From: Crambe crambe
Lineage: Eukaryota; Porifera; Demospongiae; Poecilosclerida; Crambeidae
Direction: 5' to 3'
NCBI GenBank assembly: GCA_963924555.1
Contig: OZ004583.1
Coordinates: forward strand, 620,001 to 684,000
DNA length: 64,000 nt
Shown here: piece after piece, positions 16,502-62,247 of the stretch
How the letters are laid out: each line of letters begins with the position of its first letter
Numbering within the stretch: position 1 is the stretch's first letter
Made by a program: the position numbers and the translations under genes
Notes under the pieces: model-generated
Seen by the model: the letters and a program-made list of their open reading frames with translations, nothing else
Databases searched by the model: none
Told to the model about the DNA's origin: nothing

Positions 16502-19500
16502 ATGGCAACTTTGAGATGTACCAAGAATCTATTCAGAACAATTCGCTTGAGGCGAGACATTCTTCCAGTGAAGGTTAGTGGCTGTACCAGCTGGAGTTTA
16601 TAGTTCTAATTAACGCCCACCACACAGAGCTGCGGTGCAGGAGCAGCTGTGGTACCAGTAAGACATTTGAATTTGCACGAATACCAGAGCAAGCAGCTCA
16701 TGGAGAAGTACAACATTAACGTGCAGCGGTTCAAGATGGCAAAGGACCCAGAAGAGGCTGAGAGAGCAGTGAAGGAGCTAGGGGTCAAAGAGGTCGTGCT
16801 CAAGGCACAGATTCTGGCTGGGGGGCGTGGCAAGGGCGTGTTTTCCAGTGGACTGAAGGGCGGAGTTAAAGTGACTCAAGAGTATGTTTGCATGCATGTG
16901 ATGCCATGGGTGGGTTGGTTACCGGGTTACCAGGTTGCTGGGTAGTATAGTATAGTATGGGTACGTACATGGTCCTCGGATTCTGTTGAATTACATGAAA
17001 ATACTCTTATAGTACTACAGACATTATTCTATAGGATAATCTTAATCTTTTAATGGTATTCATGATGAATTCAGTTGTGGTTGGTCCACCCATTTTTTAA
17101 ATCTTTGAACCTTCTTTGTGTGTTTTGCATTTGAACTTAAAAATTAATAATGTCTGAAGAGAGTCAAACTATCAAGAAGCTTGAAGAAAGACTCAAGTGT
17201 GCCATCTGCCTCGACACCTATACTGACCCTAAACTACTCCAGTGCTTCCATGTCTTCTGTAGAGACTGTCTGGTGCGACTGGTGGTCCGAGACCAGCAGG
17301 GACAACTCTCCTTGACTTGCCCAAACTGTCGTCAGGCCACACCCATTCCAGCCAATGGAGTGGCAGGCCTCCAGTCAGCATTTCAAGTCAATAATTTCTT
17401 GGAGATTATGGATGAGCATAAGAAGCCCAAAGATTCATCAGACAGTGATGAAGGGGTGGAAGATAATGTGAAACACACCAATCCTCCAAAGAAAGTCTTC
17501 CTTCATTGCTCTATTCATGCTGACAGAGAACTGGATTTATACTGTGAGACATGTGGGGAGTTGATCTGCTCTCACTGTGCACTCCGAGGCCAGAAACATC
17601 ACAGCCATGAGTACGACTTGATCAGCTCGTGTTATGAGAAGTACACGAGAGAGATGACCCCATCACTGGAGCCAATGGAGAAGCAACTCACAACTGTCAA
17701 GAAAGCATTGGCACATTTGGATGAGCGTTGTGGAGAGATATCTGACCAGCGAGCAGTTATCGAAGCAGATATACATCATACCACCCAACGACTTCATGAA
17801 ATCATTGATGTCAGGAGTACTGAGTTGATAAACCAGCTACACCGAAAGACCCAGGAGAAGTTAAAAATCTTAGCAAACCAAAGAGATGAATTGGAGACTA
17901 TCCTGGCCCAGTTGAGCAGCTGTTTCGAGTTTGTGAGAGAGAGCCTGGAGACGAGTAGTCAAGGAGAAGTGATGAAGATGAAGACGACCATATTCAAGAG
18001 AGTTGAAGAACTAACAGCCACCTGTACCTTCCAACCAGATGCATTAAAGCCAGGTACAGAAGCAAACATAAAGTTCATCACTTCGACTGATATCACTGTA
18101 ATGTGTAAGAAGTATGGTGAAGTAACCGTACCAGGCAGGCCTGATCCATCACAGTGCCACACAGTGACTCAAGTCATGGAGGTTGCCGAAGTCGGAGAAG
18201 ACTGCACTGCTGTTATCGAAGCTAGCGACTTCAAGGGTGAATCTTGTGAAAACCAAATGTCGTTGCTGCAATGTGAGCTCGTATCTGATCTGACAGCTGC
18301 CGTTGTGAGAGGTGAAGTAAAGCGACGAGGAGGGACCCAGTATGAGATCAGCTACCAACCTACAATCAAGGGGAGGCATCAGCTACACATTAAAGTCGAA
18401 AACCAGCATATCAAAGGAAGTCCATTTCCTGTGACGATAAAGTTACCCACTGATAAACTAGGGACTCCAATCCGAACTACTTACGGTCTGAACCGTCCAT
18501 GGGGAGTGGCTATCAACGAGAGAGGGGAAATGGTGGTTACGGAACTGGGAGGAAATCGTGTAACAGTTTTCAGTCTCAGCGGAGAGAAGCTTCGATCCTT
18601 TGGCGCGTGTGGCTCTGGTCAGGGACAGTTTAAAGATCCTTGTGGTGTGGCAGTGGATGGCGAGGGAAATCTCCTAGTGACAGACGGCATCAACAATCGT
18701 GTTCAGAAGTTCACAGCTAACGGTCAGTTTCTCGTATTAGCAGGCACTCGTGGGTACGGACATCTGGAGTTCTTGTACCCCACTGGCATTGCATTCAACA
18801 CTCATAACGGCAAGATATACATATCTGATGGTGGTAATAGTCGCATTCAAGTTCTGAACTCTGACCTCTCCTTTTCAAGTGCTTTCGGGAAGAGGGGTAA
18901 AGGAAAGGGACAGTTTGTGTCACCCTCTGGTTTGTCCTGTGATACTACCGGGAAAGTATACGTCACCGATAGCGGGAACCATCGCATCCAGGTCTTCACA
19001 GCCGAGGGGGAGTTTGTGAAGGTGTTTGGGCGACATGGCAAAGGTAGAGGTGAACTGAACTGGCCTAACGATATTGCTATTGATGCCAATGGAGTCGTGT
19101 ACGTTAGTGAACGTGATAGTCACTGCCTTTCTCTATTCACTTCCGAGGGCGTGTTTGTGACATCATTTGGCAGCGTAGGGGAAGGACCAGGAGAGTTTTG
19201 GTCTCCCCGAGGAATAGCAATAGACAGCTGTGGAGTAGTGTATGTGTGTGACAGAGAAAACGATCGTATGCAATTATTTTAATTGTACTCTTTAGGTCTC
19301 ATTAGTTTCTTAATGATATTCATAGTATCTTAATAAACCACATCCTCTTATTGGTTTATGCATGTTAGTGCAGGAAAGAAAAATGTCTGAAACTCTTGAG
19401 AAGCTTGAAGAAAGGCTCAAGTGTGCCATCTGCCTTGACACCTATACTGACCCTAAACTACTCCAGTGCTTCCATGTCTTCTGTAGAGACTGTCTCATAC

Positions 19501-22500
19501 GATTAGTCATCCAAGACTCCCTGACTTGCCCTACCTGTCGTCAGGACACACCCATTTCAGGCAATGGAGTAGCAGGTCTCCAGTCGGCATTTCAAGTCAA
19601 TGACTTCTTAGAAATTGCAAAAGAGCTTAAAAGTACAAAGAAAATAACAGCTTATCAGGAGGGAGCAATGAGTGATGTGACAAGCCCCAATCCTTCAAAG
19701 AAAGTCTCTCCTTACTGCTCTGTTCATGTTGATAAAGAACTGGAGCTGTACTGTGAGACATGTGGGGAGCTGATCTGCTCTCACTGTGCACTCCGAGGCC
19801 AGAAACATCACAGCCATGAGTACGACTTGATCAGCTCATGTTATGAGAAATACAAGAGAGAGATGACCCCATCACTGGAGCCAGTGGAGAAGCAACTCAC
19901 AACTATCAAGAAAGCATTGGGACATTTGGATGAGCGTTGTGGAGAGATATCTGACCAGCGAGCAGCTATTGAAACAGATATACATCGTACCACCCAACGA
20001 CTCCATGAAATCATCGATGTTAGAAAGACCGAGTTGATAAACCAGCTACACCGAAAGACTCAGGAGAAGCTGAAAGGCCTTGCAGTCCAGAGAGATGAAT
20101 TGGAGACCATCCTGGCCAAGTTGAGTAGTTGTCTTGAGTTTGTGAGAGAGAGCTTGGAGACAAGTAGTCAGGGAGAAGTGATGAAGATGAAGACGACCAT
20201 AATCAAGCAAGTGAAGGAACTGACTGCTACACTCCAACCAGACATATTAAAGCCTAACACAGAAGCTGACATAGAGTTCATAGCTTCAACTGATGTCACT
20301 GCAATGTGTCAAAACTATGGACGAATATGCGTACCAGGAAGTCCAGACCCCTCACAATGCCATGCAACCGGTAAAGGTTTGGAGGTAGCTGTGGTTGGAG
20401 AGGAATCTACTGCTATCGTACAAGCTAACGACTTCAAGGGTGAACCATATGAGAAACAAGTGACATTGCAATGTGAGCTTGTGTCTGAACTGACAGGTGC
20501 CATGGTGAGAGGCAACGTAAGGAGAAGAGGAGAGAACCAGTACGAGATCAACTACCAACCTACCATCAAGGGGAGGCATCAGCTACTCATCAAAATCAAG
20601 GACCAGCACATCAGAGGAAGTCCATTTCCAGTGATAGCAAAGATGCCTGTTGAGAAACTGGGTACTCCAATCCAAATGATTGAGAAGTTGAACACTCCAT
20701 TGGGAGTGGCTATAAGTGCTAGTGGGAGAGTTATAGTGACCGAGAGCAACGATCATTGTATAACAATGTTAAGTCTCACTGGAGAGAGAATTCAGTCATT
20801 GGGTTCTCATGGGTCTAATCTGGGACAGTTTGAAATGACATACGGTGTGAAAGTGTATGAAGAGGAAGAGAATGTGAATGTTCTAGTGATAGATAGTTAC
20901 AATCATCGCATTCAGAAGCTTTCCTTGGATGGCCAGTCCTTAGGAGTCGTGGGTATGTTTGGATCTGGGCCTCTGCAGTTTATATGCCCTGCAGGCGTTG
21001 CGTTGAGTGACGATAAGATTTACGTGGCAGATACTGGTAATAATCGTATTCAAGTTCTGAACTTTGACCTCACCTTTTCGAGCACATTTGGGAAGGAGGG
21101 CAGGGGCAAAGGTCAATTTGCGTTCCCTTGTGACGTATCATGTGACAGCTCCGGGAGGGTGTATGTGGCCGACAGTGGTAACCATCGCATCCAAGTCTTC
21201 TCGGCTGAAGGAAAATATTTAAAGACATTTGGGAAGCACGGTCGTGATCGGGGAGAACTGGATTTTCCTGTCGGTGTAACCATTGATGTTAATGGCGTCG
21301 TGTATGTCAGTGAGAGTGACAATCATCGTATCTCCATCTTTACTTCCGAGGGGAAATTTATGATGTTGTTCGGTAGCAAAGGAAAGGGACCGGGAGAGTT
21401 TAGGTGTCCTCAGGGACTAGCAGTAGACAGAAGTGGAGTAGTGTGTGTGTGTGACAGAGACAACGGTCGCATTGTGTTATTCTAAATACTGACATGATTG
21501 TACCATGAGATAAGTGTATTCATACTGATACATGTAAAGTGCTAATGATAATCCTTACAAGTATTATGTAATAGTATGCACAAGTGGGCAATGACAGCAA
21601 ACAAAGCAACGGAAGCAACCAGGAAATGACCCTGATGTGTGGTGAAGTGAGGTTGACTGGTGAGAATCATCTATCAACTGGTATTCAGTATGGTTGCTCC
21701 ATGCTGATATTTGTCATGGTAACTATCACAAGTGTTTCATAGTATCATGTGAATTAGCCAGATAAGACCACACATACAGATATGCCCTTTGTTTGCGTGC
21801 ATTTGAAAATGTCTGAAGAAACTATCAAGAAGCTTGAAGAAAGGCTCAAGTGTGCCATCTGCCATGATACCTATACTGACCCTAAACTACTCCAGTGCTT
21901 CCATGTCTTCTGTGGAGACTGTCTGGTGCAACTGGTGGTCCAAGACCAGCAGGGACAACTCTCCCTGACTTGCCCTAACTGTCGTCAGGCCACACCCATT
22001 CCAGCCAATGGAGTGACAGGCCTCCAGTCAGCATTTCACTTCAATGACTTCTTAGAAATTATGGAAGAACTGAAGAAGCCAAAAGATACAGCAGCCAGTC
22101 AGGAAGGTAATGTGACACGCCCCAATTCTTCAAAGAAAGTCTCTCCTTACTGCTCTGTTCATGCTGATAAAGAACTGGAGCTGTACTGTGAGACATGTGG
22201 GGAGTTGATCTGCTCTCACTGTGCACTCCGAGGCCAGAAACATCACAGCCATGAGTATGACTTGATCAGCTCGTGTTATGAGAAGTACAAGAGAGAGATG
22301 ACCCCATCACTGGAGTCAATGGAGAAGCAACTCACAAGTGTCAAGGAAGCTCTGACAGATTTGGATGTGTGTTGTGGGGAGATATCCAACCAGCAAGAAG
22401 TTATCGAAGCAGGTATACATCGCATCACCCAACGACTCCATGAAATCATTGATGTCAGAAATACTGAGTTGATAAACCAGTTACACCAAAAGACCCAGGA

Positions 22501-25500
22501 GAAGAAGCTGAAAGGCCTTGCAGTCCAGAAAGACGAGTTGGAAACCATCCTGGCCAAGTTGAGCAGTTGTCTTGAGTTTGTGAGAGAGAGCCTACAGACA
22601 AGTAGTCAGGGAGAAGTGATGAAGATGAAGACAACCATAATCAAGAAGGTGAAGGAACTGACTGCTACTTTCCAACCAGACATATTAAAGCCTAACACAG
22701 AAGCTGACATAGAGTTCATAATGTCAACTGATGTCACTGCAATGTGTGAGAACTATGGACGAATAGGTGTACCAGGAAGTCCAGACCCCTCACAATGCCA
22801 TGCAACAGGCAAAGCTGTGGTTGGAGAGGAATCTACTGCCATCGTACAAGCTAATGACTTCAAGGGTGAACCGTGTGAGAAGCAAGTGACATTGGAATGT
22901 GAGCTTGTGTCTGAACTAACAGGTGTCGTGGTGAGAGGCAACGTAAGGAGAAGAGGGGAGAGCCAGTACGAGATCAACTACCAACCTACCATCAAGGGGA
23001 GGCATCAGCTACTCATTAAAATCAAGGACCAGCACATCAGAGGAAGTCCATTTCCTGTGACAGCAAAGATGCCTGTTGAGAAACTGGGTACTCCAATCCA
23101 AACTATTGATGGTTTGAATCGTCCCTGGGGAGTGGCTATCAACAGGAAGGGGGAAATGGTGGTAACTGAGTTTGTTGGAGATTGTGTAACAGTGCTCAGT
23201 CCCAGTGGAAGGAAGATTCGATTTGGCACACGTGGCTCTGGTCGAGGACAGTTTAAAAATCCTTTAGAAGTGGCAGTAGATGGTGATGGAAATCTTCTAG
23301 TGGCTGATCATTTTAATCATCGCATTCAGAAGTTTGTGGATTACCGATTTTTTGCAGCAGTGGGCACTGAAGGTGAAGGATCTCTTCAATTCAAAGCTCC
23401 CACGAGTATCGCATTTAATGCTGCAAACAACAAAATATATGTAGCTGATTCAGGTAATAGTCGTATCCAAGTTCTGAACTCTGACCTCACCATTTCAAGT
23501 AATTTTGGGAAGTATGGTAGTGGCAGGGGAAAGTTTAAGCATCCATATGGTGTATCTTGTGACAGCTCTGGGCAAATATTTGTTGCTGATACTGATAACC
23601 ATCGCATTCAAGTCTTCACAGCCGAGGGAATATTTATGAGGATGTTTGGGCAACATGGTAGTGGTTGTGGGGAGTTAAATGAGCCTATTTGTATTTTTGT
23701 GGATGCTGATGGAGTTGTGTATGTCAGTGAGGGTAAGAATCATCGTATCTCAGTCTTTACCTCTGAGGGTCGCTTCGTGACATCATTTGGTAGCAAGGGA
23801 GAAGGACCAAGGCAGTTTGATAGTCCTTGTGGCATAGCAGTGGACAACAGTGGAGTGGTGTATGTGTGTGACTGCGACAATTGTCGTATTCAAATGTTCT
23901 AACAGTGTAATGATTTGTACTTTGTTCTTGAGTGATTTAGCAAAAAAAATTTTTGTTGTGTTTCTTTATCAAAAGAGAAAATGATTACACTTGTAGCCTC
24001 TCACCCAGCCAGCCAGCCAGCCAGCCAGGCTCTTCAAAAACAGATGCTCAAACTTGAGGCTTGCTGTATGCCCATAGCCACAGGAAGGCTATCTTAACCA
24101 CACATGGGACACTTATCCCAGTTGGCATGCTCAGACTATTGCCTGGGCTGGGAGCACAGTCATTAATTCATAATACACCACATCATAAATGGGTGTGGCA
24201 GATCAAATAGGTACCCAAGGCTCCAATTCTTCCACTGTTAGACAAAATTATATGTAGTCCCAACTTGTCCATTATTAAAAGATCCCCAGTACCATCATTA
24301 TTCAGCAAGTGAGCACAGTGAGCAAGCTGACACTGGTCATGACTTATTGAAATTATCTAATCCCCCTCCCCCCCCCCCCCCCCCCGGGCGTAGGGATGAC
24401 ATGACATATAATGAGCTTGGCATAATGATTGTGGAGAGGTGTCCTTGATACAGAGGTTAAAACTCCATCATCGTTAGGTCCTCAACAAATATCCTTCGTA
24501 TAGAGCAGGGTCCTGCCCACACTGGCCATATTGGTCCTTTTGGCCACCACTCATTATACTCAGCTGTAGTGACTTTAGACTTGTACTACATATCAGTGAT
24601 GATTTTGACCATCCAAAGGAACATCCCCTAAATGAACATAGTCTGGGCATGGCAAATAATTTCGGCTGCCACTCAAGAATCCTGGGCAGAAGCCTGATAG
24701 AGGTTATCCTTTATTAAGTGCCTTTATTTAGAGGTTATTCTTTATTAAGTGCCTTTATTTAGAGGTTATCCTTTATTAAGTGCCTTTATTTAGAGGTTAT
24801 CCTTTATTTAGAGTGTCTCTTATTTGGAGGTTTATAATAGAATCATTGTTATGCAAGCATTATTTTCATCCCCTTCTCTATGACACAGCCTGGCCTCCAT
24901 TCCTGACTTGACCAACCAAATGGTGGGCTATAAGCTGAAGACAAAGCAGACCACGGGTGATGGCGTATTGGTCCACCGTGTGATGGTGGCCGAGGCCCTG
25001 GACATTGCCCGGGAGACGTACCTTGCCATAGTGATGGACCGGGGTTTCCAGGGGCCCGTGCTGGTGGGGAGTCCCGAGGGAGGTGTGGATATCGAGGAAG
25101 TGGCCGCCAAAACTCCAGAAAAAATATTCAAGGTGAAGTTATCACTTTGTCTCATCCACTCTGTATCACATGGTATCACTCCGTCTCATCTGTGTCACTT
25201 ACATTACTTTGCATTACTCTGTGTTAACTGCTTAGATCCCTGTGGACATAGAGAAAGGAATCACTGACAATCAGTGCAGAGAAATGGCCACCAATTTAGA
25301 ATTCAAAGGAGCCACTTTAGAAGAGGTACGTATGAGAGTTTGATCCCTAGCAGAAGAGACTTACTGTGACTCGTGATTGGTTGATAGGCTGCCAATCAAA
25401 TAAAGAACCTGTACGAGATGTTTCTGAGTGTGGACGCAACTCAAGTAGAGATCAACCCATTCGGAGAGACACCAGATGCAAGAGGTACATACATATGTCC

Positions 25501-31666: not shown

Positions 31667-31697
<31 letters not shown>

Positions 31698-36486: not shown

Positions 36487-47939
<11,453 letters not shown>

Positions 47940-48263: not shown

Positions 48264-50363
48264 TTAGAATAATTGAATCCGATGATTACTGAAGTCACAC
48301 ACATACACTACTCCACTGTTGTCCACTGCTATGCTACGAGGAGTCTTAAATTGCCCTGGTCCTTCTCCCTTGCTACCAAACGATGTCACAAAACGACCCT
48401 CAGAAGTGAAGACTGAGATACGATGATTCTCATTCTCACTGACATACACAACTCCATCAACATCAACAAAAATACAAATAGGCTTGTTTAACTCCCCACG
48501 ACTGCTACCACCTTGCCCAAACATCCTCACAAATCTTCCATCGGCTGTAAAGACTTGAATGCGATGGTTCCCATAATCGGCAATGAATATTTGCCCAGAG
48601 CTGTCACAAGATACACCAAATGGACGATCAAACTGTCCCTTGCTACTACCACGACCCCCAAAAGTGCTCAAAAAGGTGAGATCAGAGTTCAAAACTTGGA
48701 TACGATTATTACAAAAATCAGCTACATATATTTTGTTATTAGCAGCATTGAATGCAATACTCGTGGGACCTGTGAATTGAAGAGGTCCTTCACCTACAGT
48801 GCCCACTGCTGCAAGAAATCGGCCATCCCCTGCAAACTTCTGAATGCGATGATTGAAACCATCGACCACTAGAAAATTTCCATCACTATCCACTACCACA
48901 CCATGAGGATTGTCAAACTGTCCTTGACCAGAGCCATGTGTGCCAAACGATTGAATCTTTTCTCCACTGGGACTGAGAACTGTTACACAATGCTCATCAA
49001 ACTCAGTTACCACCATTTCCCCCTTCCTGTTGACAACCACTCCCCAGGGATGATTCAAACCACCAATAGTTCGGATTGGAGTACCCAGTTTCTCAACAGA
49101 CATCTTTGCTGTCACAGGAAATGGACTTCCTCTGATGTGCTGGTCCTCGATTTTGATGAGTAGCTGATGCCTCCCCTTGATGGTAGGTTGGTAGTTGATC
49201 TCGTACTGGCTCTCTCCTCTTCTCCTTACATTGCCTCTCACCACGACACCTGTTAGTTCAGATACAAGCTCACATTGCAATGTCACTTGTTTCTTACATG
49301 GTTCACCCTTGAAGTCATTAGCTTGTACGATAGCAGTAGATTCCTCTCCAACAACAGCTACCTCCAAACCTTTACCTGTTGCATGGCATAGTGAGGGGTC
49401 TGGACTTCCTGGTACACCTATTTGTCCATAGTTCTCACACATTGCAGTGACATCAGTTGAAGCTATGAACTCTATGTCAGCTTCTGTGTTAGGCTTTAAT
49501 ACATCTGGTTGGAGTGTAGCAGTCAGTTCCTTCACTTGCTTGATTATGGTTGTCTTCATCTTCATCACTTCTCCCTGACTACTTGTCTCCAGGCTCTCTC
49601 TCACAAACTCAAGACAACTGCTCAACTTGGCCAGGATGGTCTCCAACTCGTCTCTCTGGACTGCAAGGCCTTTTAGCTTCTCCTGGGTCTCTTGATGTAG
49701 CTGGTTTATCAACTCAGTCTTTCTGACGTCGATGATTTCATGGAGTCGTTGGGTGGTGCGATGTATATCTGCTTCGATAGCTGCTCGCTGGTCAGATATC
49801 TCCCCATAACGCACATCCAAATCTGCCAATGCTTTCTTCACAGTTGTGAGTTGCTTCTCCATTGGCTCCAGTGATGAAGTCATCTCTCTCTTGTACATCT
49901 CGTAACATGAACTGATCAAGTCGTACTCATGGCTGCGATGTTTCTGACCTCGTAGTGAGCAATGAAAGCATATTAGCTCCCCACATGTCTCACAGTACAA
50001 CTCCAGCTCTTTATCAGCATGAACAGAGCAGTAAGGAGACACTTTCTTTGAAGGATTGGGGCATGTCACATTACCTTCCTGACTGGTTGTTGAATCTTTG
50101 GGCTTCTTATGTTCTTTCATAATTTCTAAAAAGTCATTTGCTGACTGGAGGCCAGTCACTCCATTGGCTGGGATGGGTGTGGCCTGACGACAGTTGGGGC
50201 AAGTCAGGGAAAGTTGTCCCTGCTGGTCTCGGACCACCAGTCGCACCAGACAGTCTCTACAGAAGACATGGAAGCACTGGAGTAGTTTAGGGTCAGTATA
50301 GGTGTCAAGGCAGATGGCACACTTGAGCCTTTCTTCAAGCTTCTTGATAGTTTCTTCAGACAT
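48264..50363 (-). CDS. TRIM-NHL E3 ubiquitin ligase, copy 5
   Basis: Intronless, 699 residues from the conserved [13 protein letters not shown] start at 50363; the frame stays open to a Met at 50459 but those 32 residues are not shared by paralogues. Full RING / B-box / coiled coil / filamin / six NHL blades ([40 protein letters not shown]). The B-box has F for S in ELICFHCSLRGQ, zinc ligands kept. The linker after the RING lacks a few residues (GLQSANDFLEI). Probably in a UTP20 intron, same strand. Confidence 0.92.
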   Translation of the reverse strand: MSEETIKKLEERLKCAICLDTYTDPKLLQCFHVFCRDCLVRLVVRDQQGQLSLTCPNCRQATPIPANGVTGLQSANDFLEIMKEHKKPKDSTTSQEGNVTCPNPSKKVSPYCSVHADKELELYCETCGELICFHCSLRGQKHRSHEYDLISSCYEMYKREMTSSLEPMEKQLTTVKKALADLDVRYGEISDQRAAIEADIHRTTQRLHEIIDVRKTELINQLHQETQEKLKGLAVQRDELETILAKLSSCLEFVRESLETSSQGEVMKMKTTIIKQVKELTATLQPDVLKPNTEADIEFIASTDVTAMCENYGQIGVPGSPDPSLCHATGKGLEVAVVGEESTAIVQANDFKGEPCKKQVTLQCELVSELTGVVVRGNVRRRGESQYEINYQPTIKGRHQLLIKIEDQHIRGSPFPVTAKMSVEKLGTPIRTIGGLNHPWGVVVNRKGEMVVTEFDEHCVTVLSPSGEKIQSFGTHGSGQGQFDNPHGVVVDSDGNFLVVDGFNHRIQKFAGDGRFLAAVGTVGEGPLQFTGPTSIAFNAANNKIYVADFCNNRIQVLNSDLTFLSTFGGRGSSKGQFDRPFGVSCDSSGQIFIADYGNHRIQVFTADGRFVRMFGQGGSSRGELNKPICIFVDVDGVVYVSENENHRISVFTSEGRFVTSFGSKGEGPGQFKTPRSIAVDNSGVVYVCDFSNHRIQLF

Positions 50364-50628
50364 TCCACACACACAAAGCGCATGAGGTTTCATGTGATAC
50401 TCATGAATATCATTAAGAGTAAGCCACAATGGTTGACCATCGTGATTGATATCTCTCACTACCAGTCAACCTCACATATTAGGGTCATTTCCTGTTTGCA
50501 CATGTTTTCTACAAGGTTGGGAATATTTCCACACCAAGTTTTAGCTCCAAGGCTACTAGTTATGGAGAGCAACTCCACCTTGCAATAATGCATGGAGCCC
50601 ATAGGAATTCTCTGTCCTATAATACTAT
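50364..50628 (-). promoter_or_regulatory. Upstream region of TRIM-NHL copy 5
   Basis: No CArG box and no ACAGGAAGT match was recognised. The block ends where a MITE-like element begins. Confidence 0.35.
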
Positions 50629-51358: not shown

Positions 51359-53467
51359 TTAGAATAATTGAATGCGATGATTGCCAAGATCACACACATA
51401 CACTACTCCACTGTTGTCCACTGCTATGCCACGAGGACCATCAAACTGCCCTGGTCCTTCTCCCTTGCTACCAAACGATGTCACAAAATGACCCTCAGAG
51501 GTGAAGACTGAGATACGATGATTCTCACTCTCACTGACATACACAACTCCATCAGCATCAATAAAAATACAAATAGGCTTGTTTAACTTCCCACGACAGC
51601 TACCATGTTGCCCAAACATCCTCACAAATCTTCCCTTGGCTGTGAAGACTTGAATGCGATGGTTCCCATGATCGGCTATGAATATTTGCCCAGAGCTGTC
51701 ACAAGATACACCATATGGACGATCAAACTGTCCCTTGCCAGTACCATACTTCCCAAAAGTGCTCGAAAATGTGAGGTCAGAGTTCAGAACTTGGATACGA
51801 TTATTACAAGTATCGGCTGCATATATTTTGTTGTTTTTAGGATTAACTGCAATGCTCACAATGCCTACAAATTGAAGAGGTCCTTCACCTACAGAACCAA
51901 CTGCTATGAGGAATTGGCCATCTCCTGTGAACTTCTGAATGCGACCATTATAACTATCAGCCACTAGAAGATTTCCTTTGCTATCCACGGTCATACCACC
52001 AGGATGGTCGAACTGTCCTTGACCAGACCCACGTGTGCCAAATGATTGAAACATCTCTCCACTGAGACTGAGCACTGTTACACAATGTCCATCAAACTCT
52101 GATATCACCATTTCCCCCTTCTTATTGATAACTATTCCAAAGGGACAGTTCACTTCATAAATAGTTCGAATTGGAGTACCCAGTTTCTCAACAGGCATCT
52201 TTGCTGTCACAGGAAATGGACTTCCTTTGATGTGCTGGTCCTTGGTTTTGATGAGTAGCTGATGCTTCCCCTTGATGGTAGGTCGGTAGTTGATCTCGTA
52301 CTGGTTCTCTCCTCTTCTCCTTACATTGCTTCTCACCATGGCACCTGTTAGTTCAGACACAAGCTCACATTGCAATGTCATTTGTTTCTCACATGGTTCA
52401 CCATTGAAGTCGCTAGCTTGTACAATGGAAGTAGATTCCTCTCCAACCACAGCTACCTCAAAACCTTTACCTGTCACTTGGCATTGTGAGGGATCTGGAC
52501 TTCCTGGTACATGAACCTGCCCATAGTTCTGACACATTGCAGTGACATCAGTTGAAGCTATGAACTCTATGTCAGCTTCTGTGTTAGGCTTTAATACATC
52601 TGGTTGGAATGTAGCAGTCAGTTCCTTCACTTGCTTGATTATGGTCGCCTTCATCTTCATCACTTCTCCATGACTACTTGTCTCCAAGCTCTCTCTCACA
52701 AATTCAAGACAGCTGCTCAACTTGGCCAGGATCATCTCCAATTCATATCTCTGGACTGCAAGGCCTTTCAGCTTATCCTGGGTCTCTTGGTGTAACTGGT
52801 TTATCAACTCGGTATTTCTGATGTCGATGATTTCATGGAGTCGTTGGGTGGTGCGATGTATATCTGCTTCGATAGCTGCTCGCTGGATGGATATCTCCCC
52901 ACAATGTACATCCAAATGTGTCAGAGCTTTCTTGACAGTTGTGAGTTGCTTCTCCACTGGCTCCAGTGATGGGGTCATCTCTTTCTTGTATTGCTCATAA
53001 CATGAGCTGATCAAGTCGTACTCATGGCTGTGATGTTTCTGGCCCCGAAAGACACAGTGAGAGCAGATTAGCTCCCCACATGTCTCACAGTACAACTCCA
53101 GTTCTTTATCAGCATGAACAGAGCAGTAAGGAGAGACTTTCTTTGAAGGATTGGGGCGTGTCACGTCGCCTTCTGGTCTGGTTGCTGTATCTTTTGGCTT
53201 CTTGTGTTCTTCCATAATTTCTAAGAAGTCATTGACTTGAAATGCTGACTGGAGGCCAGTCACTCCATTGGCTGGGATGGGTGTGGCATGACGACAGTTT
53301 GGGCAAGTTAGGGAGAGTTGTCCCTGCTGGTCTCGGACCACCAGTCGCACCAGACAGTCTCTACAGAAGACATGGAAGCACTGGAGTAGTTTAGGGTCAG
53401 TATAGGTGTCAAGGCAGATGGTACACTTGAGTCTTTCTTCAAGCTTCTGGATAGTTTCTTCAGACAT
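51359..53467 (-). CDS. TRIM-NHL E3 ubiquitin ligase, copy 6
   Basis: Intronless, 702 residues from MSEETIQKLEERL. RING with [11 protein letters not shown]-box with SHCVFRGQ, coiled coil, filamin-type domain ([12 protein letters not shown]), six NHL blades ([40 protein letters not shown]). ACAGGAAGT at 53501-53509 upstream is shared with copy 8. Propeller blade 1 (EVNCPFGIVINKKGEMVI) differs clearly from the usual NHPWGVAI form. Confidence 0.93.
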   Translation of the reverse strand: MSEETIQKLEERLKCTICLDTYTDPKLLQCFHVFCRDCLVRLVVRDQQGQLSLTCPNCRHATPIPANGVTGLQSAFQVNDFLEIMEEHKKPKDTATRPEGDVTRPNPSKKVSPYCSVHADKELELYCETCGELICSHCVFRGQKHHSHEYDLISSCYEQYKKEMTPSLEPVEKQLTTVKKALTHLDVHCGEISIQRAAIEADIHRTTQRLHEIIDIRNTELINQLHQETQDKLKGLAVQRYELEMILAKLSSCLEFVRESLETSSHGEVMKMKATIIKQVKELTATFQPDVLKPNTEADIEFIASTDVTAMCQNYGQVHVPGSPDPSQCQVTGKGFEVAVVGEESTSIVQASDFNGEPCEKQMTLQCELVSELTGAMVRSNVRRRGENQYEINYRPTIKGKHQLLIKTKDQHIKGSPFPVTAKMPVEKLGTPIRTIYEVNCPFGIVINKKGEMVISEFDGHCVTVLSLSGEMFQSFGTRGSGQGQFDHPGGMTVDSKGNLLVADSYNGRIQKFTGDGQFLIAVGSVGEGPLQFVGIVSIAVNPKNNKIYAADTCNNRIQVLNSDLTFSSTFGKYGTGKGQFDRPYGVSCDSSGQIFIADHGNHRIQVFTAKGRFVRMFGQHGSCRGKLNKPICIFIDADGVVYVSESENHRISVFTSEGHFVTSFGSKGEGPGQFDGPRGIAVDNSGVVYVCDLGNHRIQLF

Positions 53468-53980
53468 TTTCAAATACACATATGCACATTGTCTGGTTAT
53501 ACAGGAAGTGTGTTTTATTCGTTATTTTTGGCATTGAATGCAATGCTTGAAGGGTTTGAGGACCGAAAAGTTCATTTTGAAATGGCTAGACTTTTCTGGC
53601 CAGAGAATGTCCCTAATTTCAATCGTAAGTTTATAATTTCACTCCTACCTACTGCGCATGTGCAGACTAACTAACCTAGTAACAACATTTCTGAAGATGG
53701 TAGGCAAGCTTGATTGATTTCTACAGCATTTTTTCAGGGTGAATTGTTATACCCAAATTACACTCAAAAGCATGTAATTATTTACCTATACTAATTGGGG
53801 TGGTCACTAATTGTGGTTGCTTTTTTTTTTTTTATGCTTTTATTAGGCAAAAAATAATCAGTAGATTAATTTCACTTGAACAAATGAGGGTAAATGTACT
53901 AGTAAATATCAACCATATGATTATACTCTTAATAACACAATAATAATACACTTATGGAATATGAACTGTTGTGATATACA
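53468..53980. other. Gap between TRIM-NHL copies 6 and 7
   Basis: Holds the promoter of copy 6 (ACAGGAAGT at 53501-53509, an ETS-like core) and the 3' end of copy 7. A poly-T run sits at about 53820-53834. No gene seen. Confidence 0.5.
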
Positions 53981-56062: not shown

Positions 56063-56099
56063 TTTTTTATACAGATTCAAACCAGAAGTGTCAGTGTGA

Positions 56100-56109
56100 C
56101 CTTATTTGG
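56100..56109 (-). promoter_or_regulatory. CArG box (SRF-type) upstream of TRIM-NHL copy 7
   Basis: CCAAATAAGG on the minus strand, in the same TAGCCAAATAAGGTCACAC block as in copy 4. The matching place in the pseudogene copy (59633-59642) reads TCAGATAAGG and no longer fits. Confidence 0.5.
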
Positions 56110-57104
56110 CTAAGGAATGTGCATGATGAACATGGCTTTTATTAATGACATGTTATTAACATGTTCCATGTCTCATTGGCATAATTGGCTCTTTATCTCA
56201 TCCCTCTGTGTCTCAGTTTCTCTTCTCTAGGATCTGAACTACTCAATGAATTTTAAAGCAAATTAAAGGCTAGGGCTTGCTCACTCATCCCAATTATCCT
56301 AGAGTTGAAATGGCTAGCCTCCTTCTGCAAAAGACACTTTAAATGTCTGCTGTGATCCTTGTTGCTATGTAAATGGCTGATAGGTCTTATCATCATGAAA
56401 GGTGTGCACTATTTATAACTATAACACAATGGTTCTACCGGCCATTGGGCTATCAAGCCAGAGGAGAAACGAGGGTGGTGGCACGTAACCACGTGGTCAT
56501 AATGATTACTACCCATAAATTTCCAGTATGATACAGAGAGTTTCAGTGGGGACCATATGAAATTCATTGAATCTCTGAAAGTACGAGCCAAAAAATTAGC
56601 ATATAGAATAGTTGAACAAGATTACATATCTTGCCCAGAATCTCAGGTAGAAAGCCGTGTCATTGATGTCATGAGAATATGTAACCAGAAATCAACAAAA
56701 GCTTTTGTTATTTTGTAGAGAAGAGTGATAAGAAACAGTTGATCACTAATCTCAAGTGATTGGTGAGTTAAGGACTGTTCATTTCCCTTCATGTCTGGCA
56801 TATGTGGTAGAGTTATGATTATGAATAATTTGTTGTCAAGAGATAAACACTGGAGTAGTTACAGTTGATTTATTATTTTTAGCATCCCTGTATCACAGGT
56901 TACCACATTTCATTGAGTTTGGTTAACCACTGGATACAAAACTCTAGCCATGGAGCAACTACAGTACTGAATAAAAAAACAAGCAAAGAGCAGATAATGG
57001 AACTCTAGAATGCAGCTTCCCCAATTATACTCTTATTATCAAAATAACACTATAATGACTATTTTGAAATACACTTATGAAACATGAAACCTGTTGTGAT
57101 AGAC
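56110..57104. other. Gap between TRIM-NHL copy 7 and the pseudogene, partly duplicated sequence
   Basis: 56110-56340 and about 56635-56760 align with 59645-60010 upstream of the pseudogene. The stretch between (about 56350-56634) is absent from the other copy, so it is an insertion here or a deletion there. No gene seen in it. Confidence 0.65.
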
Positions 57105-59590
57105 ATTAAATAACTGAATGCGATTGTTCATGTGGTCACACACACACACACACTACTCCATTGGTGTCTACTGCCAGTCCTATAGGACGTCCTGGTCCTA
57201 CCACTTCATCACCAAATGACATTAAAAATTGACCCTTGGAGGTGAACAAGGAGACACGATTATCACGCTCACTGACATACACAACACCATCAGCATCAAC
57301 AGCAATACCAGTCGGTTTATTAAGCTCCTCCCTACGTTGCCCAAACATCCTCACAAACTTCAGTGAAGATTTGAATATGATGGCCACATACATGTTACCA
57401 GAGCTATCACAAGATACACCACGTGGGAAATCAAATTGTCCGTTGCCACTTCCCATCTCACCAAAAGTGCCTGAATAGGTGAGGTCAGAGTTCAATACTT
57501 GGATACGATCATTATAAACATCTGCTACGTATATCTTATTGTTATAAGTATTGAATGGAAGGCCAGAAGGATCGTTGAACTGAAGAGATCCTTTCCCCTT
57601 TGCACCAACAGCTGCTATAAACTGGCCATTTGCTGAAAACGTTTGAATGTAATTAGAAGCATCTGCCACTAGAAGATTCCCCATGCTATCTACTGCCACA
57701 CCACGTGGATTGCAAAACTGTCCCTGACCAGAGCCATACGTACCAAAGGATTGTAACTTTTTTCCACTGAGAGAAAATACTGTTACACAATGTCCGTCAT
57801 TCTCAGTTACCACTATTTCCCCTTTCTTGTTGATAGCCACTCCCAAGGGATGATTCAAGCCATAGATATTCCGGATTGGAGTACCCAGTTTCTTAACAGA
57901 CATCTTTGCTGTCACAGGAAATGGACTTCCTCTGATGTGCTGGTCCTTGATTTTGATGAGTAGCTGATGCCTCCCCTTGATGGTAGGTTGGTAGTTGATC
58001 TCGTACTGGCTCTCTCCTCTTCTCCTTACGTTGCCTCTCACCACGACACCTGTTAGTTCAGACATGAGCTCACATTGGAATGTCACTTGCTTTGCACATG
58101 GTTCACCATTGAAGTTGTTAGCTTGTACAACAGCAGTAGATTCCTCTCCAACCACAGCTACCTCCAAATCTTTACCTACTGCATGGCATTATGAGGGGTC
58201 TGGACTTCCTCTTATACGAACCTGACCATAGTTCTGACACATTGCAGTGATATCAGCTGACATTATGAACTCTATGTCAGCTTCTGTGTTAGGCTTTAAT
58301 ACGTCTGGTTGGAATGTAGCAGTCAGTTCCTTCACTTGCTTGATTATGGTCGTCTTCATCTTCATCACTTCTCCCTGACTACTTGTCTCCAGGCTCTCTC
58401 TCACAAACTCAAGACAGCTGCTCAACTTAGTCAGGATGGTCTCCAACTCGTCTCTCTGTACTGCAAGGCCTTTCAGCTTCTCCTGGGTCTATTGGTGTAG
58501 CTGGTTTATCAACTTAGTCTTTCTGATATCGATGATTTCATTGAGTTGTTGGGTGGTGCGATGTATATCTGCTTCAACAGCTGCTCGCTGGTCAGATATC
58601 TCCCCACAACGTACATACAAATGTGTCAGAGCTTTCTTGATGGTCGTGAGTTGCTTCTCCACTGGCTCCAGTTCTCTCTCTTGTACTTCTTATAACATGA
58701 TCTAATCAAGTCATACTCATGGCTGTGATGCTTCTGGTCTCGAAAGACACAGTGAGAGCAGATTAGCTCCCAACATGTCTCACAGTACAGCTCCAGTTCT
58801 TTATCAGCATGAACAGAGCAGTAAGGAGAGACTTTCTTTGAAGAATTGGGGTGTGTCACATCATCTTCCTGACTGGTTGCTGTATCTTTGGGCTTCTTGC
58901 ATAATTTCTAAGAAGTCATTGACTTGAAATGCTGATTGGAGGCCTGCCACTCCATTGGTTGGAATGGGTGTGGCCTGACGACAGTTGGGGCAAGTCAGGG
59001 AGAGTTGTCCCTGTAGTCTCGTGCAGACTTTCCTGATGGGCGGGGCTTCACGGAGAGGGAGAGTCTGATAACTGTGGCCAGGTTTCAGTGGACACTCTGG
59101 AATGCAGTCACATGCACTTGTCACGTGCGCAAAAGAATTTATTTTAGAGTTCTTTTCCTTTTTTAGGGAGGAGGTTTAAGGATTTGATTGTCATCTGTGC
59201 GAGACCATCAGCTAATGGAGCTATTTGACAGCTTCTCTGATAGCAAGAGAATCAACCATCTTCGAACGCGCGATCGTTTATAGCTGATATTCATGATAAT
59301 CACATGACATTCACGCCCATTTTTTTGAATCTGCGATCTGATTGGTGCTGCCACAAATTCCTGCAGTGTCCACTGAAACCTGGCCACAGTTACCAGACTT
59401 TCCCTCTCCCTCTCCGTGAAGCCCCGCCCATCAGGAAAGTCTGCGCGAGACTATTGTCCCTGCTGGTCTCGGACCACCAGTTGCATCAGACAGTCTTTAC
59501 AGAAGACATGGAAGCACTGGAGTAGTTTAGGGTCAGTATAGGTGTCAAGGCAGATAGCACACTTGAGCTGCTCTTCAAGCTTTTTGACAT
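57105..59590 (-). pseudogene. TRIM-NHL pseudogene, interrupted by a MITE
   Basis: Matches copy 7 from MSKKLEEQL (59590) to the last NHL blade near 57105. The RING coding region is split by a 440-bp element (59014-59453). A stop stands in the coiled coil (LHQ then TAG, near 58490), and frame changes occur near 58170-58200, 58680, 58860-58915 and at the C-terminus, where a CA repeat has lengthened and one T of the terminal TTTTAA is missing. A piece of one NHL blade is lost (near 57355-57370). The longest open piece (58167-57136, 343 residues) still reads as filamin domain plus NHL blades, but no RING can be made from it. A host gene copy that decayed after a local duplication. Confidence 0.9.
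59014..59453. mobile_element. 440-bp MITE with about 85-bp terminal inverted repeats and 9-bp target duplication
   Basis: Left inverted repeat 59014-59096 and right 59365-59453 both read inward from TAGTCTCG(T/C)GCAGACTTTC, through GGGCGGGGCTTCACGGAG to TTTCAGTGGACACT; the right has six extra bases. TTGTCCCTG flanks both sides (59005-59013 and 59454-59462) and occurs once in intact paralogues. It encodes nothing. Long inverted repeats plus a 9-bp duplication suggest a Mutator-like non-autonomous DNA transposon; the superfamily is inference. Confidence 0.88.
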
Positions 59591-60135
59591 TTTTTATACA
59601 AAAAGAGATTCAAACCAGAAGTGTCTGTGTGACCTTATCTGACTAAGGAATGTGCTTTGATGAATATGGCTTTTATTAATGACATGTTATTAACATGTTC
59701 CACGTCTCATTGGCATAATTGGCTCTTTATCTCATCCATCTGTGTCTCAGTTACTCTTCTCTAGGATCTGAACTACTCAACAGATTTTAAAGCAAATCAA
59801 AGGCTAGGGCTAGGGCTTGCTCACTCATCCCAATTATCCTAGAGTTGAAATGGTTAGCCTCCTTTTGCACACTTTAAATGCCCAGAATCTCAGGTAGCAA
59901 GCCATGTAATTTATGTCATGAGAATATGTAACAAAGTAAACCAGAGATCAACAAAAACTCTTGTTATTTTGTAGAGAAGAGTGATAAGAAACAGTTGATT
60001 ACAAATCTCAGGCGATTGGTGAGTTAAAGACTGTTAGGTCTGGAATTGGCTTCATGTGTGGATGAAATGTGCCACAACCCTTTAACCTCAAGTTATTTTG
60101 ACATAGAGACACTATAAATACACATAAAGCCACAG
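59591..60135. other. Upstream flank of the TRIM-NHL pseudogene (duplicated from copy 7) and 3' side of copy 8
   Basis: 59600-60010 is the duplicate of the copy 7 upstream flank. No open gene; the CArG position is altered. Confidence 0.6.
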
Positions 60136-62247
60136 TTAAAATAATTGAATGCGATGATTATTTAGGTCACACACATACACTACTCCACTGTTGTCCACTG
60201 CTATGCTACGAGGACGATCAAACTGCCCTGGTTCTTTTCCCTTGCTACCAAACGATGTCACAAAGTGACCTCCAGAGGTGAAGACTGAGATACGATGATT
60301 CACATTCTCACTGACATACACAACTCCATCAGCATCAACAAAAATACTAATAGGCTCATCTAACTCCCCACGACCACTACCATGTCGCCCAAACCTCCTC
60401 ACGAATCTTCCCTCGGCTGTAAAGACTTGAATGCGATGGTTATTAGTATCAGCAACAAACACTAGCCCAGAACTGTCACAAGATACACTATATGGACAAT
60501 CAAACTGTCCCCTACCACTACCATACTTCCCAAAAGTACTTGAATACGTGAGGTCAGAGTTCAGAACTTGAATACAATTGTTACCAAATTCAGCTATATA
60601 TATTTTTTTGTTTGTAGCATTAAATGCAATGCTTGTGGGGCCTATGAACTGAAGAGGTCCTTCACCTATAGTGCCTACTGCTGCGAGAAATTGGCTGTCC
60701 CCTGTAAATTTCTGAATGCGACAATTGAAACCATCAGCCACTAGAAGATTTCCATCACCATCCACTGCCACACCACAAGGATGGTTGAACCGTCCTTGAT
60801 AAGAGCCATGCATGCCAAATGATCGAATCTTTTCTCCACTGGGACTGAGGACTGTCACACAATGTCCACCACCTTCTATTATCACCATTTCCCCCTTCCT
60901 GTTGATAATTATTCCACAGGGACCATTCACTCCATTGATACTTTGAATTGGAGTACCCAGTTTCTCGACAGGCATCTTTGCTGTCACAGGAAATGGACTT
61001 CCTCTGATGTGCTGGTCCTTAATTTTGATGAGTAGCTGATGCCTCCCCTTGATGGTAGGTCGGTAGTTGATCTCGTACTGGCTCTCTCCTCTTCTCCTTA
61101 CATTGCCTCTCACCACGGCACCTGTTAGTTCAGACACGAGCTCACATTGCAACAATGTCACTTGTTTCTCACACGGTTCATCCTGGAAGTTGTTAGCTTG
61201 TACGATAGCAGTAGATTCCTCTCCAACCACAGCCACCTTCACACCTTTACCTGTCACATGACATCGTGAGGGGTTTGAACTTCCTGGTACATGAACCTGC
61301 CCATAGTTCTCACACATATCAATGATATCACTTGAAGTAATAAACTCTATTTCAGATTCTGTGTTAGGCTTTAATACGTCTGGTTGGAATGTAGCAGTCA
61401 GTTCCTTCACTTTCTTGATTATGGTCGTCTTTACCTTCACCACTTCTCCCTGACTATTTGTCTCCAGGCTCTCTCTCACAAACTCAAGACAGCTGCTCAA
61501 CTTGGCCAGGATGGTCTCCAACTCGTCTCTCTGGACTGCAAGGCCTTTCAGCTTCTCCTGGGTCTCTCGGTGTAGCTGGTTTATCAACTCGGCCTTTCTA
61601 ACATCGATGATTTCATGGAGTCGTTGGGTGGTGCGATGTATATCTGCTTCAATAGCTGCTCGCTGGTCAGATATCTCCCCACAACGTACATCCAAATGTG
61701 CCAGAGCTTTCTTGACAGTTGTGAGTTGCTTCTCCATTGGTTCTAGTGATGGGGTCATCTCTCTCTTGTACTTCTCGTAACATGAGCTGATCAAGTCGTA
61801 CTCATGGCTGTGATGTTTCTGGCCTCGGAGTGCACAGTGAGAGCAAATTAGCTCCCCACATGTCTCACAGTACAGCTCCAGTTCTTTATCAGCATGAACA
61901 GAGCAGTAAGGAGAGACTTTCTTTGAAGGATTGGGGCGTGTCATGTCACCTTCCTGACTGGTTGCTGTATCTTTGGGCTTCTTGTGCTCTTCCATAATTT
62001 CTAAGAAGTCATTGAAATGAAATGCTGACTGGAGACCTGCTACTCCATTGGCTGGGATGGGTGTGGCCTGACGACAGTTAGGGCAAGTCAGGGAGAGTTG
62101 TCCCTGCTGGTCTTGGACCACCAGTCGCACCAGACAGTCACTGCAGAAGACATGGAAGCACTGGAGTAGTTTAGGGTCAGTATAGGTGTCAAGGCAGATG
62201 GCACACTTGAGCCTTTCTTCAAGCTTCTTGATAGTTTCTTCAGACAT
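60136..62247 (-). CDS. TRIM-NHL E3 ubiquitin ligase, copy 8
   Basis: Intronless, 703 residues from [13 protein letters not shown]. Complete RING (one S for R in VFCSDCL), B-box, coiled coil, filamin-type domain, six NHL blades (DGFNCRIQKF, EFGNNCIQVL, DTNNHRIQVF, DLNNHRIQLF). Blade 1 is unusual ([18 protein letters not shown]). ACAGGAAGT upstream (62290-62298) is shared with copy 6. Confidence 0.93.
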   Translation of the reverse strand: MSEETIKKLEERLKCAICLDTYTDPKLLQCFHVFCSDCLVRLVVQDQQGQLSLTCPNCRQATPIPANGVAGLQSAFHFNDFLEIMEEHKKPKDTATSQEGDMTRPNPSKKVSPYCSVHADKELELYCETCGELICSHCALRGQKHHSHEYDLISSCYEKYKREMTPSLEPMEKQLTTVKKALAHLDVRCGEISDQRAAIEADIHRTTQRLHEIIDVRKAELINQLHRETQEKLKGLAVQRDELETILAKLSSCLEFVRESLETNSQGEVVKVKTTIIKKVKELTATFQPDVLKPNTESEIEFITSSDIIDMCENYGQVHVPGSSNPSRCHVTGKGVKVAVVGEESTAIVQANNFQDEPCEKQVTLLQCELVSELTGAVVRGNVRRRGESQYEINYRPTIKGRHQLLIKIKDQHIRGSPFPVTAKMPVEKLGTPIQSINGVNGPCGIIINRKGEMVIIEGGGHCVTVLSPSGEKIRSFGMHGSYQGRFNHPCGVAVDGDGNLLVADGFNCRIQKFTGDSQFLAAVGTIGEGPLQFIGPTSIAFNATNKKIYIAEFGNNCIQVLNSDLTYSSTFGKYGSGRGQFDCPYSVSCDSSGLVFVADTNNHRIQVFTAEGRFVRRFGRHGSGRGELDEPISIFVDADGVVYVSENVNHRISVFTSGGHFVTSFGSKGKEPGQFDRPRSIAVDNSGVVYVCDLNNHRIQLF

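Follow-up and report, generated by a model that had tools for sequence, protein, structure and literature searches.

Genes of the window and their domains

A cluster of TRIM-NHL genes in a 64,000-nucleotide stretch of the genome of the sponge Crambe crambe (the whole stretch analysed, hereafter the window) raises the question of whether one half of these proteins is kept as a constant effector while the other diversifies as a binding face. The presence of eight intact paralogues, proposed earlier from the sequence, was confirmed by domain searches, with RING, B-box, filamin and NHL matches exceeding Pfam cut-offs in 8/8 ORF products. The eight genes are each single-exon with ORFs of 699 to 731 aa, "intact" denoting a frame open for 670 aa or more whose start lies ahead of the RING. 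They are listed below with two broken copies; residues are numbered after the 703-aa form of g60, which starts at 62247.

17150..19282, + strand: g17, intact TRIM-NHL, single open frame of 710 aa
19362..21485, + strand: g19, intact TRIM-NHL, ORF of 707 aa; homologous start 19383
21782..23902, + strand: g21, intact TRIM-NHL, ORF of 706 aa; homologous start 21809
40238..42388, - strand: g40, intact TRIM-NHL, ORF of 716 aa; homologous start 42358
48264..50459, - strand: g48, intact TRIM-NHL, ORF of 731 aa; homologous start 50363
51359..53479, - strand: g51, intact TRIM-NHL, ORF of 706 aa
53981..56080, - strand: g53, intact TRIM-NHL, ORF of 699 aa
57108..59594, - strand: broken TRIM-NHL copy, longest ORF just 343 aa (57136-58167)
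60136..62259, - strand: g60, intact TRIM-NHL, ORF of 707 aa; 703 aa from homologous start 62247
60136..60963, - strand: g60 NHL propeller, residues 429-703 plus stop
62826..64000, - strand: broken TRIM-NHL copy truncated at the window edge, open frame of 551 aa (L011 past the edge)

The architecture is exemplified by g17, in which RING, B-box, coiled-coil region and filamin domain precede an NHL propeller of six blades, as counted by alignment register. A single B-box (PF00643) exceeds the cut-off in each of the eight proteins, and the filamin domain (PF00630) and NHL repeats (PF01436) are likewise found in all of them. For the coiled coil, residues 15-310 of g60, the one protein of the eight that was searched, match the RING-to-coiled-coil structure of TRIM3 (8amr, E 8.5e-31), and PML_CC is weakly listed by Pfam in five of the eight. 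The best solved-structure match of g60 is TRIM71/LIN41 (6fpt, E 1.6e-59). No B30.2 (PRY-SPRY) domain was matched by Pfam in any of the eight proteins, nor is there a membrane or secretion part among their Pfam matches. When zinc-ligand positions are assigned from the known RING and B-box motifs, the eight Cys/His positions of the RING are invariant in 56/56 copies from the genome, as are those of the B-box except His118 (55/56). By domain content the window genes are thus class VII TRIMs (TRIM-NHL), with predicted E3 ligase activity. Among the other ORFs of the window, Pfam gave a UTP20 match in one and no match in four.

The family extends to at least 98 such places in the genome (93 plus 5), broken ones included. 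Of the two broken copies above, that at 57108-59594 has the start of its RING (59448-59594) about 410 bases apart from the remainder and in a different frame, and that at 62826-64000 shifts frame near 63308. Seven among the first 63 copies lack a full open frame or a clear start, so that part of the family is decaying. Four further loci (L014, L049, L069 and L076) count as intact by the definition above yet end unusually or early.

Divergence along the protein and history of the ligase half

Uniform divergence along the gene, named by the earlier note as a refuter of its view, was not observed. Mean amino-acid identity over the 28 pairs of window genes is 0.91 in the RING, 0.90 in the B-box, 0.84 in the coiled-coil region and 0.81 in the filamin domain, and falls to 0.65 in the NHL part, against 0.83 for the ligase half as a whole; the variation of the NHL blades between copies is therefore borne out. 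The accompanying statement that the ligase half is almost the same in all copies holds for the domains from RING to filamin, and fails for the RING-to-B-box linker, which is poorly kept (mean identity 0.68, 28 pairs). The variable motifs that had been quoted proved to be the b-c loop of the second blade, which in the eight copies in order reads DGIN, DSYN, DHFN, DSYN, DGFN, DSYN, DACN and DGFN.

The dN/dS of whole halves is unusable alone as proof of the view taken in the earlier note, because over the 28 window pairs the ligase half (0.33) and the propeller (0.34) are equal. This equality follows from synonymous divergence, which is likewise low in the ligase half (dS 0.265 vs 0.694 in the propeller, the latter near or above 1 in many of the pairs). 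Among the four close copies g21, g48, g51 and g60, propeller dN/dS is 0.49-0.67 and that of the ligase half 0.23-0.38, and pooling of close pairs genome-wide gives 0.67 and 0.32. The excess of the propeller among close pairs stems from the face sites defined below, constraint on its remaining sites being similar to that on the ligase half.

Within the cluster, much of the resemblance between ligase halves is also synonymous, and gene conversion, rather than selection acting only on the effector, is its best explanation. Codon constraint was considered as its cause and discarded, since ligase-half synonymous sites diverge freely elsewhere, with a median dS of about 0.9-1.2 between distant clusters. 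Upstream flanks of 600 bases are alignable in only 5 of the 28 window pairs. In addition, even when the 30 face sites are omitted, ligase half and propeller each reject the tree of the other in three clusters (AU p 2e-59 to 0.005); the ligase half has a history separate from that of the propeller, by gene conversion or recombination.

Face sites and their variability

The face was defined from zebrafish LIN41, for which 14 residues touching RNA are named in the available passages of the structural paper (Kumari et al., 2018, PMC5908797). All 14, ten located by script with a single numbering offset and the remaining four placed by hand in the same numbering, fall in registers P-2, P-1, P+1, D+1 and D+2. 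These five registers in six blades make up 30 sites, counted in g60 from P443, P490, P537, P585, P632 and P679 and from the D positions 458, 505, 553, 600, 647 and 694. An earlier set of 36 sites chosen by variability, which included D+4 (set w 1.72), was dropped in favour of the contact registers; D+4 by itself has w of 1.0. By analogy with LIN41, the five registers would form a single face. The a-b and c-d hairpins are taken by us, from general propeller topology, to be the loops of the opposite face.

Comparison of the variable sites with the contacts published for LIN41 showed that the registers touching RNA there hold most of them. Across 56 copies, mean entropy is 3.02 bits at the 30 face sites vs 0.90 elsewhere in the propeller; when the 275 propeller sites are ranked by variability, 26 of the first 30 belong to the face. 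In the eight window copies on their own the means are 1.97 vs 0.67 bits and the face supplies 20 of the top 30, and copies not used before give 23 of the top 30. This pattern far exceeds chance, and the face sequences are distinct in all 56 copies compared. A distant group of 20 genes repeats it only weakly, with 16 of the top 30 in a gap-rich alignment and a face-site w of 1.71 from five pairs (70.5 nonsynonymous and 7.5 synonymous counts). In composition, the face is rich in Tyr (8.6 vs 2.3 percent) and Trp (3.5 vs 0.2); Arg (not Lys), Ser, Asn, His and Cys are also enriched, and Val, Phe, Ile and Pro depleted. Its net charge over the 30 sites ranges from -5 to +5, with a mean of +0.8.

Positive selection at the face

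Values of dN/dS (w) well below 1 at propeller-face sites, the other outcome named in advance as a refuter, were not found either. Face w is 1.78 for the eight window genes (p = 1e-5 against 1), and 2.48, 4.25, 3.01, 4.33 and 3.83 for the sets C5C20, C3a, C3b, C9 and C17, the window set and C5C20 having four genes in common. In the same sets the presumed opposite-face loops give 0.21-0.40, the remaining propeller 0.31-0.71 and the ligase half 0.31-0.56. Separate trees for three propeller segments yield face w of 1.70 to 4.84, each with p < 1e-4, so that face dN/dS exceeds 1 in all sets fitted (1.7 to 4.8). The expectation of a diversifying binding face, which whole-half dN/dS over the 28 pairs did not bear out, stands at the face sites, in the window and in further clades.

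The codon models are home-made and use one dS common to all partitions, whereas a tree-free test uses separate dS. In this test, 32 disjoint closest pairs of 76 long open copies have face dN of 0.436 and dS of 0.249, hence w of 1.75 by the face sites' own dS (binomial p 3e-6); w is 0.45 for the remaining propeller sites and 0.32 for the ligase half. Face dS is raised in comparison with the remaining propeller (0.170) and the ligase half (0.186), perhaps through changes of several bases at a time or through imported tracts. Site by site, 27 of 33 nominally positive sites lie within the 30 face sites, and none of 116 negative sites does. A register scan pooled over five clades found w above 1 at P-10, P-2, P-1, P+1, D+1 and D+2 only. 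P-10 is a strongly selected register, yet it holds no RNA contact in LIN41. Taken together, these data support that diversification is driven by selection at the presumed binding face.

A candidate recognition repertoire and its rivals

We propose, with a probability of about 0.66, that this large clustered family of class VII TRIM E3 ligases would be an intracellular recognition repertoire with a constant effector and a diversifying face. The zinc ligands of RING and B-box and the propeller scaffold are retained, while a few loop registers recurring in the six blades, among them those that grip RNA in LIN41, diversify under positive selection. These registers may make up one target-binding face, and the RING may ubiquitinate the target or the target's carrier. 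Selection would come from changing antagonists, for which viruses, microbes living inside cells or transposons are the most plausible candidates. The ligand may be RNA, which TRIM71 and Brat bind, or protein. A bolder extension, which we regard as doubtful, would make of the NHL propeller a germline-encoded, antibody-like scaffold with some 30 to 35 hypervariable positions in fixed registers of the six blades and a constant E3, the variable and constant halves being exchanged among about 100 loci through gene conversion.

Explanations without recognition fare poorly. The reduced synonymous divergence of the ligase half, together with the broken copies, does show conversion and turnover, which would suit relaxed constraint at tolerant loops with conversion homogenising the 5' half. 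Such relaxation predicts w near 1 in place of the 1.7 to 4.8 at the face, and loops elsewhere in these propellers are constrained; six registers stand out in the scan pooled over five clades, and the variability recurs in copies not used before and, more weakly, in the distant group. This account was rejected as very improbable. Recombination between copies can bias tree-based site tests, and between-half recombination is demonstrated here. Nevertheless, the signal survives segment trees as well as disjoint pairs analysed without a tree, and an artefact of this kind is not expected to strike the same registers blade after blade; it was rejected too, as scarcely tenable.

Among recognition accounts, it is quite possible, if somewhat short of an even chance, that the faces bind varied foreign or self proteins in the manner of the B30.2 loops of TRIM5 and finTRIM. 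The paratope-like composition (Tyr and Trp raised) and mixed charge favour this, the B30.2 loops under positive selection in TRIMs of fish offer an analogy in the passages available (PMC3137616), and relatives with known face ligands in the papers cited speak against it, as they bind RNA. That the faces differ in the RNA sequences or hairpins they read, and act as sensors or silencers of viral or transposon RNA, is held more tentatively. The selected registers contain all 14 published LIN41 contacts, and Brat and Mei-P26, according to excerpts, bind RNA on the same surface (PMC13245067, PMC9070667). In Brat, as there described, the spacings Tyr829-Arg847 (18) and Phe916-Asn933 (17) fit P-1/D+2 and P-1/D+1 by spacing only, with Asn800 and Arg875 unplaced. 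Enrichment of Arg (not Lys) and Tyr also agrees with RNA, but faces of negative as well as positive net charge occur, in contrast to the basic pocket of LIN41. The coincidence of registers fits RNA or protein alike, the top face of propellers being a common protein-binding site too. Diversifying selection among paralogues would be expected also from fertilisation, self-recognition or arms races with the animal's own transposons. Replacing pathogen defence by a contest with own transposons or other selfish elements, or by fertilisation or allorecognition, would leave an identical evolutionary signature, and no antagonist is singled out by the data; we consider it unlikely. Nothing specific speaks against the transposon version; a cell-surface role is weakly disfavoured by the Pfam matches, which include no membrane or secretion part.

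Comparison with known systems

TRIM71/LIN41, a class VII TRIM known as a conserved developmental regulator, with an NHL part that binds RNA hairpins, resembles the intracellular repertoire proposed here in its filamin and NHL domains, its structure (the closest solved one to g60) and the registers of its RNA contacts. It differs in that the sponge family occupies at least 98 places, its contact positions are among the most variable of the protein and its face charge is mixed; conserved basic contact residues of the LIN41 type were not found at the 30 equivalent sites. TRIM2 and TRIM3 are likewise of class VII, and g60 matches TRIM3 from RING to coiled coil; according to excerpts they are two paralogues, expressed mainly in brain (PMC9732051), in contrast to the large repertoire here. 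In the passages available, the fish finTRIM, btr and trim35 sets and TRIM5 (class IV) share big duplicated sets, selection on ligand loops and recombination between copies (PMC3137616), whereas their variable part is B30.2 in place of the NHL propeller.

In the sections available, Sardiello et al. (2008, PMC2533329) divided TRIMs by SPRY or other C-terminal domains, a division in which NHL TRIMs would belong to group 1. The sole invertebrate expansion noted there concerns worm and fly filamin-subgroup genes without mammalian counterpart. Group 1 is described as conserved, with human-mouse Ka/Ks of about 0.13, whereas the present family resembles the fast group 2 in its behaviour. Rapid tandem expansions in animal TRIMs, which may serve responses to external aggression, were reported by Marin (2012, PMC3503706); its available passages mention no NHL face, positive-selection map or comparable species. 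Among the matches listed from the open-licence literature, none describes such a TRIM-NHL expansion or positive selection on NHL faces. TRIM and NHL are absent as whole words from the searched text of an oyster paper (PMC4346834), and in excerpts NHL occurs once in a figure legend of a Halichondria paper (PMC8242945) and a TRIM71-like transcript in a table of an Antarctic sponge heat paper (PMC6896943).

NHL TRIMs are usually counted as an old, conserved TRIM branch, and fast selected repertoires have been described for the vertebrate B30.2 branch. Here the NHL branch behaves like a fast repertoire, and most of its selected sites fall on positions that hold RNA in the solved structure of a relative. 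The family offers proteins on which changes of propeller specificity can be tested directly and, in an invertebrate, a candidate recognition system. If its faces read RNA, an animal that lacks adaptive immunity would have a protein-based repertoire with which to tag RNA of foreign or selfish origin.

Genes of the window and size of the family

Eight single open frames were found where the earlier note had placed intact TRIM-NHL genes, each with RING, B-box, coiled-coil region, filamin domain and NHL repeats, and this domain content makes the family a class VII TRIM (TRIM-NHL), an architecture that marks the host as an animal. Three genes run rightward (17-24 kb) and all others leftward. The window, G000:C5:620001-684000 of an assembly of 143 Mb, also holds two further family copies, both broken, and the cluster extends past it to about 698 kb. 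The following features accompany these genes.

57108-59594, minus strand: broken TRIM-NHL copy whose RING start is set apart from the remainder by about 410 bases and lies in a different frame
46104-46718, minus strand: ORF in which a long Ser-Leu simple repeat precedes a Pfam match to UTP20 (N-terminal), close to the next two features
44051-45010: Leu/Cys-rich simple repeat ORF
45670-45753: tRNA-Leu call
G000:C5:696100-698650 (assembly coordinates): L012, closely related to the window genes, with one blade (about 50 aa) duplicated near-exactly in the propeller of a 750-aa open frame

L012 apparently encodes a seven-bladed NHL propeller, an assembly error being the alternative.

Genome searches were run with five family members, each returning the best 63 of about 600 candidates. 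The first four together gave at least 93 places on 12 contigs and the fifth added five (C12:3452741, C12:3511148, C3:5911029, C3:7388594 and C3:5947531), so that the family occupies at least 98 places, broken copies included. An NHL-model search yielded 1503 candidate repeats, and many of the best 150 fell on other contigs, within additional open frames about 700 aa long. A RING-like pattern, called from Cys/His spacing in the open frame rather than by Pfam scoring, stood near the start of the longest open frame (674-770 aa) in 20/20 distant places sampled. The real family is probably well above 98 in size. One distant NHL-TRIM subgroup (L084-L090, G000:C17:651700-773900, and L091-L093, C10:7.06-7.09 Mb) has a RING start like CAICQEHYTEPKVLSCLHYYC, and its members L091 and L092 form an almost identical gene pair.

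Divergence of the ligase half and the propeller

A constant ligase half joined to a variable propeller had been proposed from the sequence by eye. Amino-acid identities bear this out: in the eight window genes their mean is 0.83 for the N-terminal half and 0.65 for the propeller. Nevertheless, over the 28 window pairs (Nei-Gojobori) dN was 0.087 and dS 0.265 in the N-terminal half (ratio 0.33), compared with 0.235 and 0.694 in the NHL part (ratio 0.34), propeller dS being near or above 1 in many pairs. Since both dN and dS are lower in the N-terminal half, synonymous changes contribute to the contrast as much as amino-acid changes do, and the step falls close to alignment column 440, where the propeller starts. 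Among close copies, amino-acid evolution does proceed faster in the propeller: in g21, g48, g51 and g60 (window genes named by their start in kb) propeller dS was 0.20-0.30 and the ratio 0.49-0.67, the N-terminal half having ratios of 0.23-0.38; close pairs pooled genome-wide gave 0.67 for the propeller and 0.32 for the N-terminal half. The propeller excess lies in a few registers.

Variable sites and LIN41 contacts

Variability was surveyed in 56 copies, comprising the eight of the window and 48 of 55 others retrieved. In every blade, the hypervariable positions were P-2, P-1 and P+1, counted from a conserved P in the d-a loop, and D+1 and D+2, counted from a conserved D/E in the b-c loop. 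RNA-touching residues of zebrafish LIN41 are given by Kumari et al. (2018; PMC5908797). With one numbering offset, the ten residues mutated in that study fall at P-1, P+1, D+1 and D+2, and the same numbering places Cys563 at P-2, Ser582 at D+2, Trp660 at P+1 and Phe722 at D+1. The hypervariable registers thus coincide with 14/14 RNA contacts in the available text of that paper, in agreement with the earlier suggestion of a diversifying binding face. Extended to all six blades, the five registers define 30 face sites; the variability, and 36 sites picked by it (w, i.e., dN/dS, 1.72), were known before the LIN41 contacts were consulted.

Entropy over the 56 copies was 3.02 bits at the face sites and 0.90 elsewhere in the propeller (Mann-Whitney p 1e-18). 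Face sites made up 26 of the 30 most variable among 275 propeller sites, 20/30 in the window copies alone, and 23 of the top 30 in twenty previously unused copies. Face variability was weaker in the distant group (16 of the top 30), where w was 1.71 from small counts.

Positive selection at the face

Codon models were fitted by maximum likelihood with one dS and a separate w per partition. Face w was 1.78 in the eight window genes, 2.48 in C5C20 (a set sharing four genes with them), and 4.25, 3.01, 4.33 and 3.83 in the sets C3a, C3b, C9 and C17, each significantly above 1 and as expected from the diversification proposed earlier; the four close window genes gave 2.98. Elsewhere w was 0.21-0.40 in the presumed opposite-face loops, 0.31-0.71 in the remaining propeller and 0.31-0.56 in the N-terminal half of the five sets fitted for it (all but C17). 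Placing three propeller segments on separate trees kept face w at 1.70 to 4.84. A tree-free comparison of 32 disjoint closest pairs from 76 long open copies gave 1.75 for the face with its own dS, 0.45 for the rest of the propeller and 0.32 for the N-terminal half, face dS itself being raised (0.249 vs 0.170 and 0.186, respectively).

When the registers of five clades were scanned together, w rose above 1 at P-10 (4.0), P-2 (3.0), P-1 (4.0), P+1 (2.5), D+1 (3.0) and D+2 (5.0) and nowhere else. Per-site tests at 275 sites found 33 positive and 116 negative at nominal p < 0.05, uncorrected for multiple sites, of which 27/33 and 0/116 were face sites (hypergeometric 2e-28 and 2e-8). Outside the face, five positive sites were at P-10, each in a different blade, and the sixth was a P-8 site. 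P-10 (480, 527, 575, 622 and 669 in g60) is under strong positive selection, yet the available LIN41 account places no RNA contact there; it may belong to a wider binding face or serve a different partner.

Separate histories of the halves

In cluster C5, to which the window belongs, median dS was 0.20 in the N-terminal half and 0.77 in the NHL part (66 pairs, 12 copies). The corresponding medians were 0.34 and 0.26 in C3, 0.22 and 0.14 in C9, and 0.21 and 0.20 in C17, indicating that the step is a trait of the window's cluster rather than of the family. The single pair L055-L058, for example, had dS of 0.37 and 0.09, respectively. Synonymous sites of the N-terminal half are free to change, as its median dS between distant clusters is about 0.9 to 1.2. 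With the 30 face sites excluded, the trees of the two halves rejected each other in C5C20 (AU p 1.5e-50 and 1.6e-55), C3a (2e-59 and 0.005) and C17 (8e-6 and 6e-10). Similarity in 600-base flanks was found upstream in 5/28 and downstream in 7/28 window pairs, in some cases as short or displaced matches that may reflect dispersed repeats. Short stretches downstream of g17, g19, g53 and g60 match one another at 82 to 94 percent; they are shifted relative to the stop codons and probably represent a dispersed repeat. The simplest reading of these patterns would be old duplicates whose 5' coding halves were repeatedly homogenised by gene conversion in the window's cluster, with halves swapped in other clusters.

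Possible ligand and proposed working

All 30-site faces were distinct (56/56). They are enriched in Tyr, Trp, Arg, Ser, Asn, His and Cys, depleted in Val, Phe, Ile and Pro, and carry net charges of -5 to +5. Judged from composition, the putative face looks closer to a general binding surface than to a single uniform basic pocket, and RNA is therefore not claimed as its ligand. In the available accounts of Brat and Mei-P26, RNA is bound on the NHL surface (PMC13245067; PMC9070667), and Kumari et al. emphasise fast NHL-face change among subfamilies (PMC5908797).

RING, B-box and scaffold are constant, the registers diversify, histories are modular and the clusters include broken copies. The diversifying registers may together form one face gripping a target, which the RING would tag with ubiquitin. 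Such targets would be rapidly changing, as in viruses, intracellular microbes or transposons.

Comparison with known TRIM families

No published report of such a TRIM-NHL family was found among the matches listed from the open-licence literature. In the text available, Sardiello et al. (2008; PMC2533329) describe the non-SPRY TRIM group as conserved, the filamin subgroup being the sole invertebrate expansion they saw, and Marin (2012; PMC3503706) considers tandem TRIM expansions as possibly serving responses to external aggression. Positive selection in the finTRIM, btr and trim35 sets of fish has been located in B30.2 loops (PMC3137616). Judging by sequence patterns, the sponge family would work likewise, whereas its binding module is the NHL propeller in place of B30.2.
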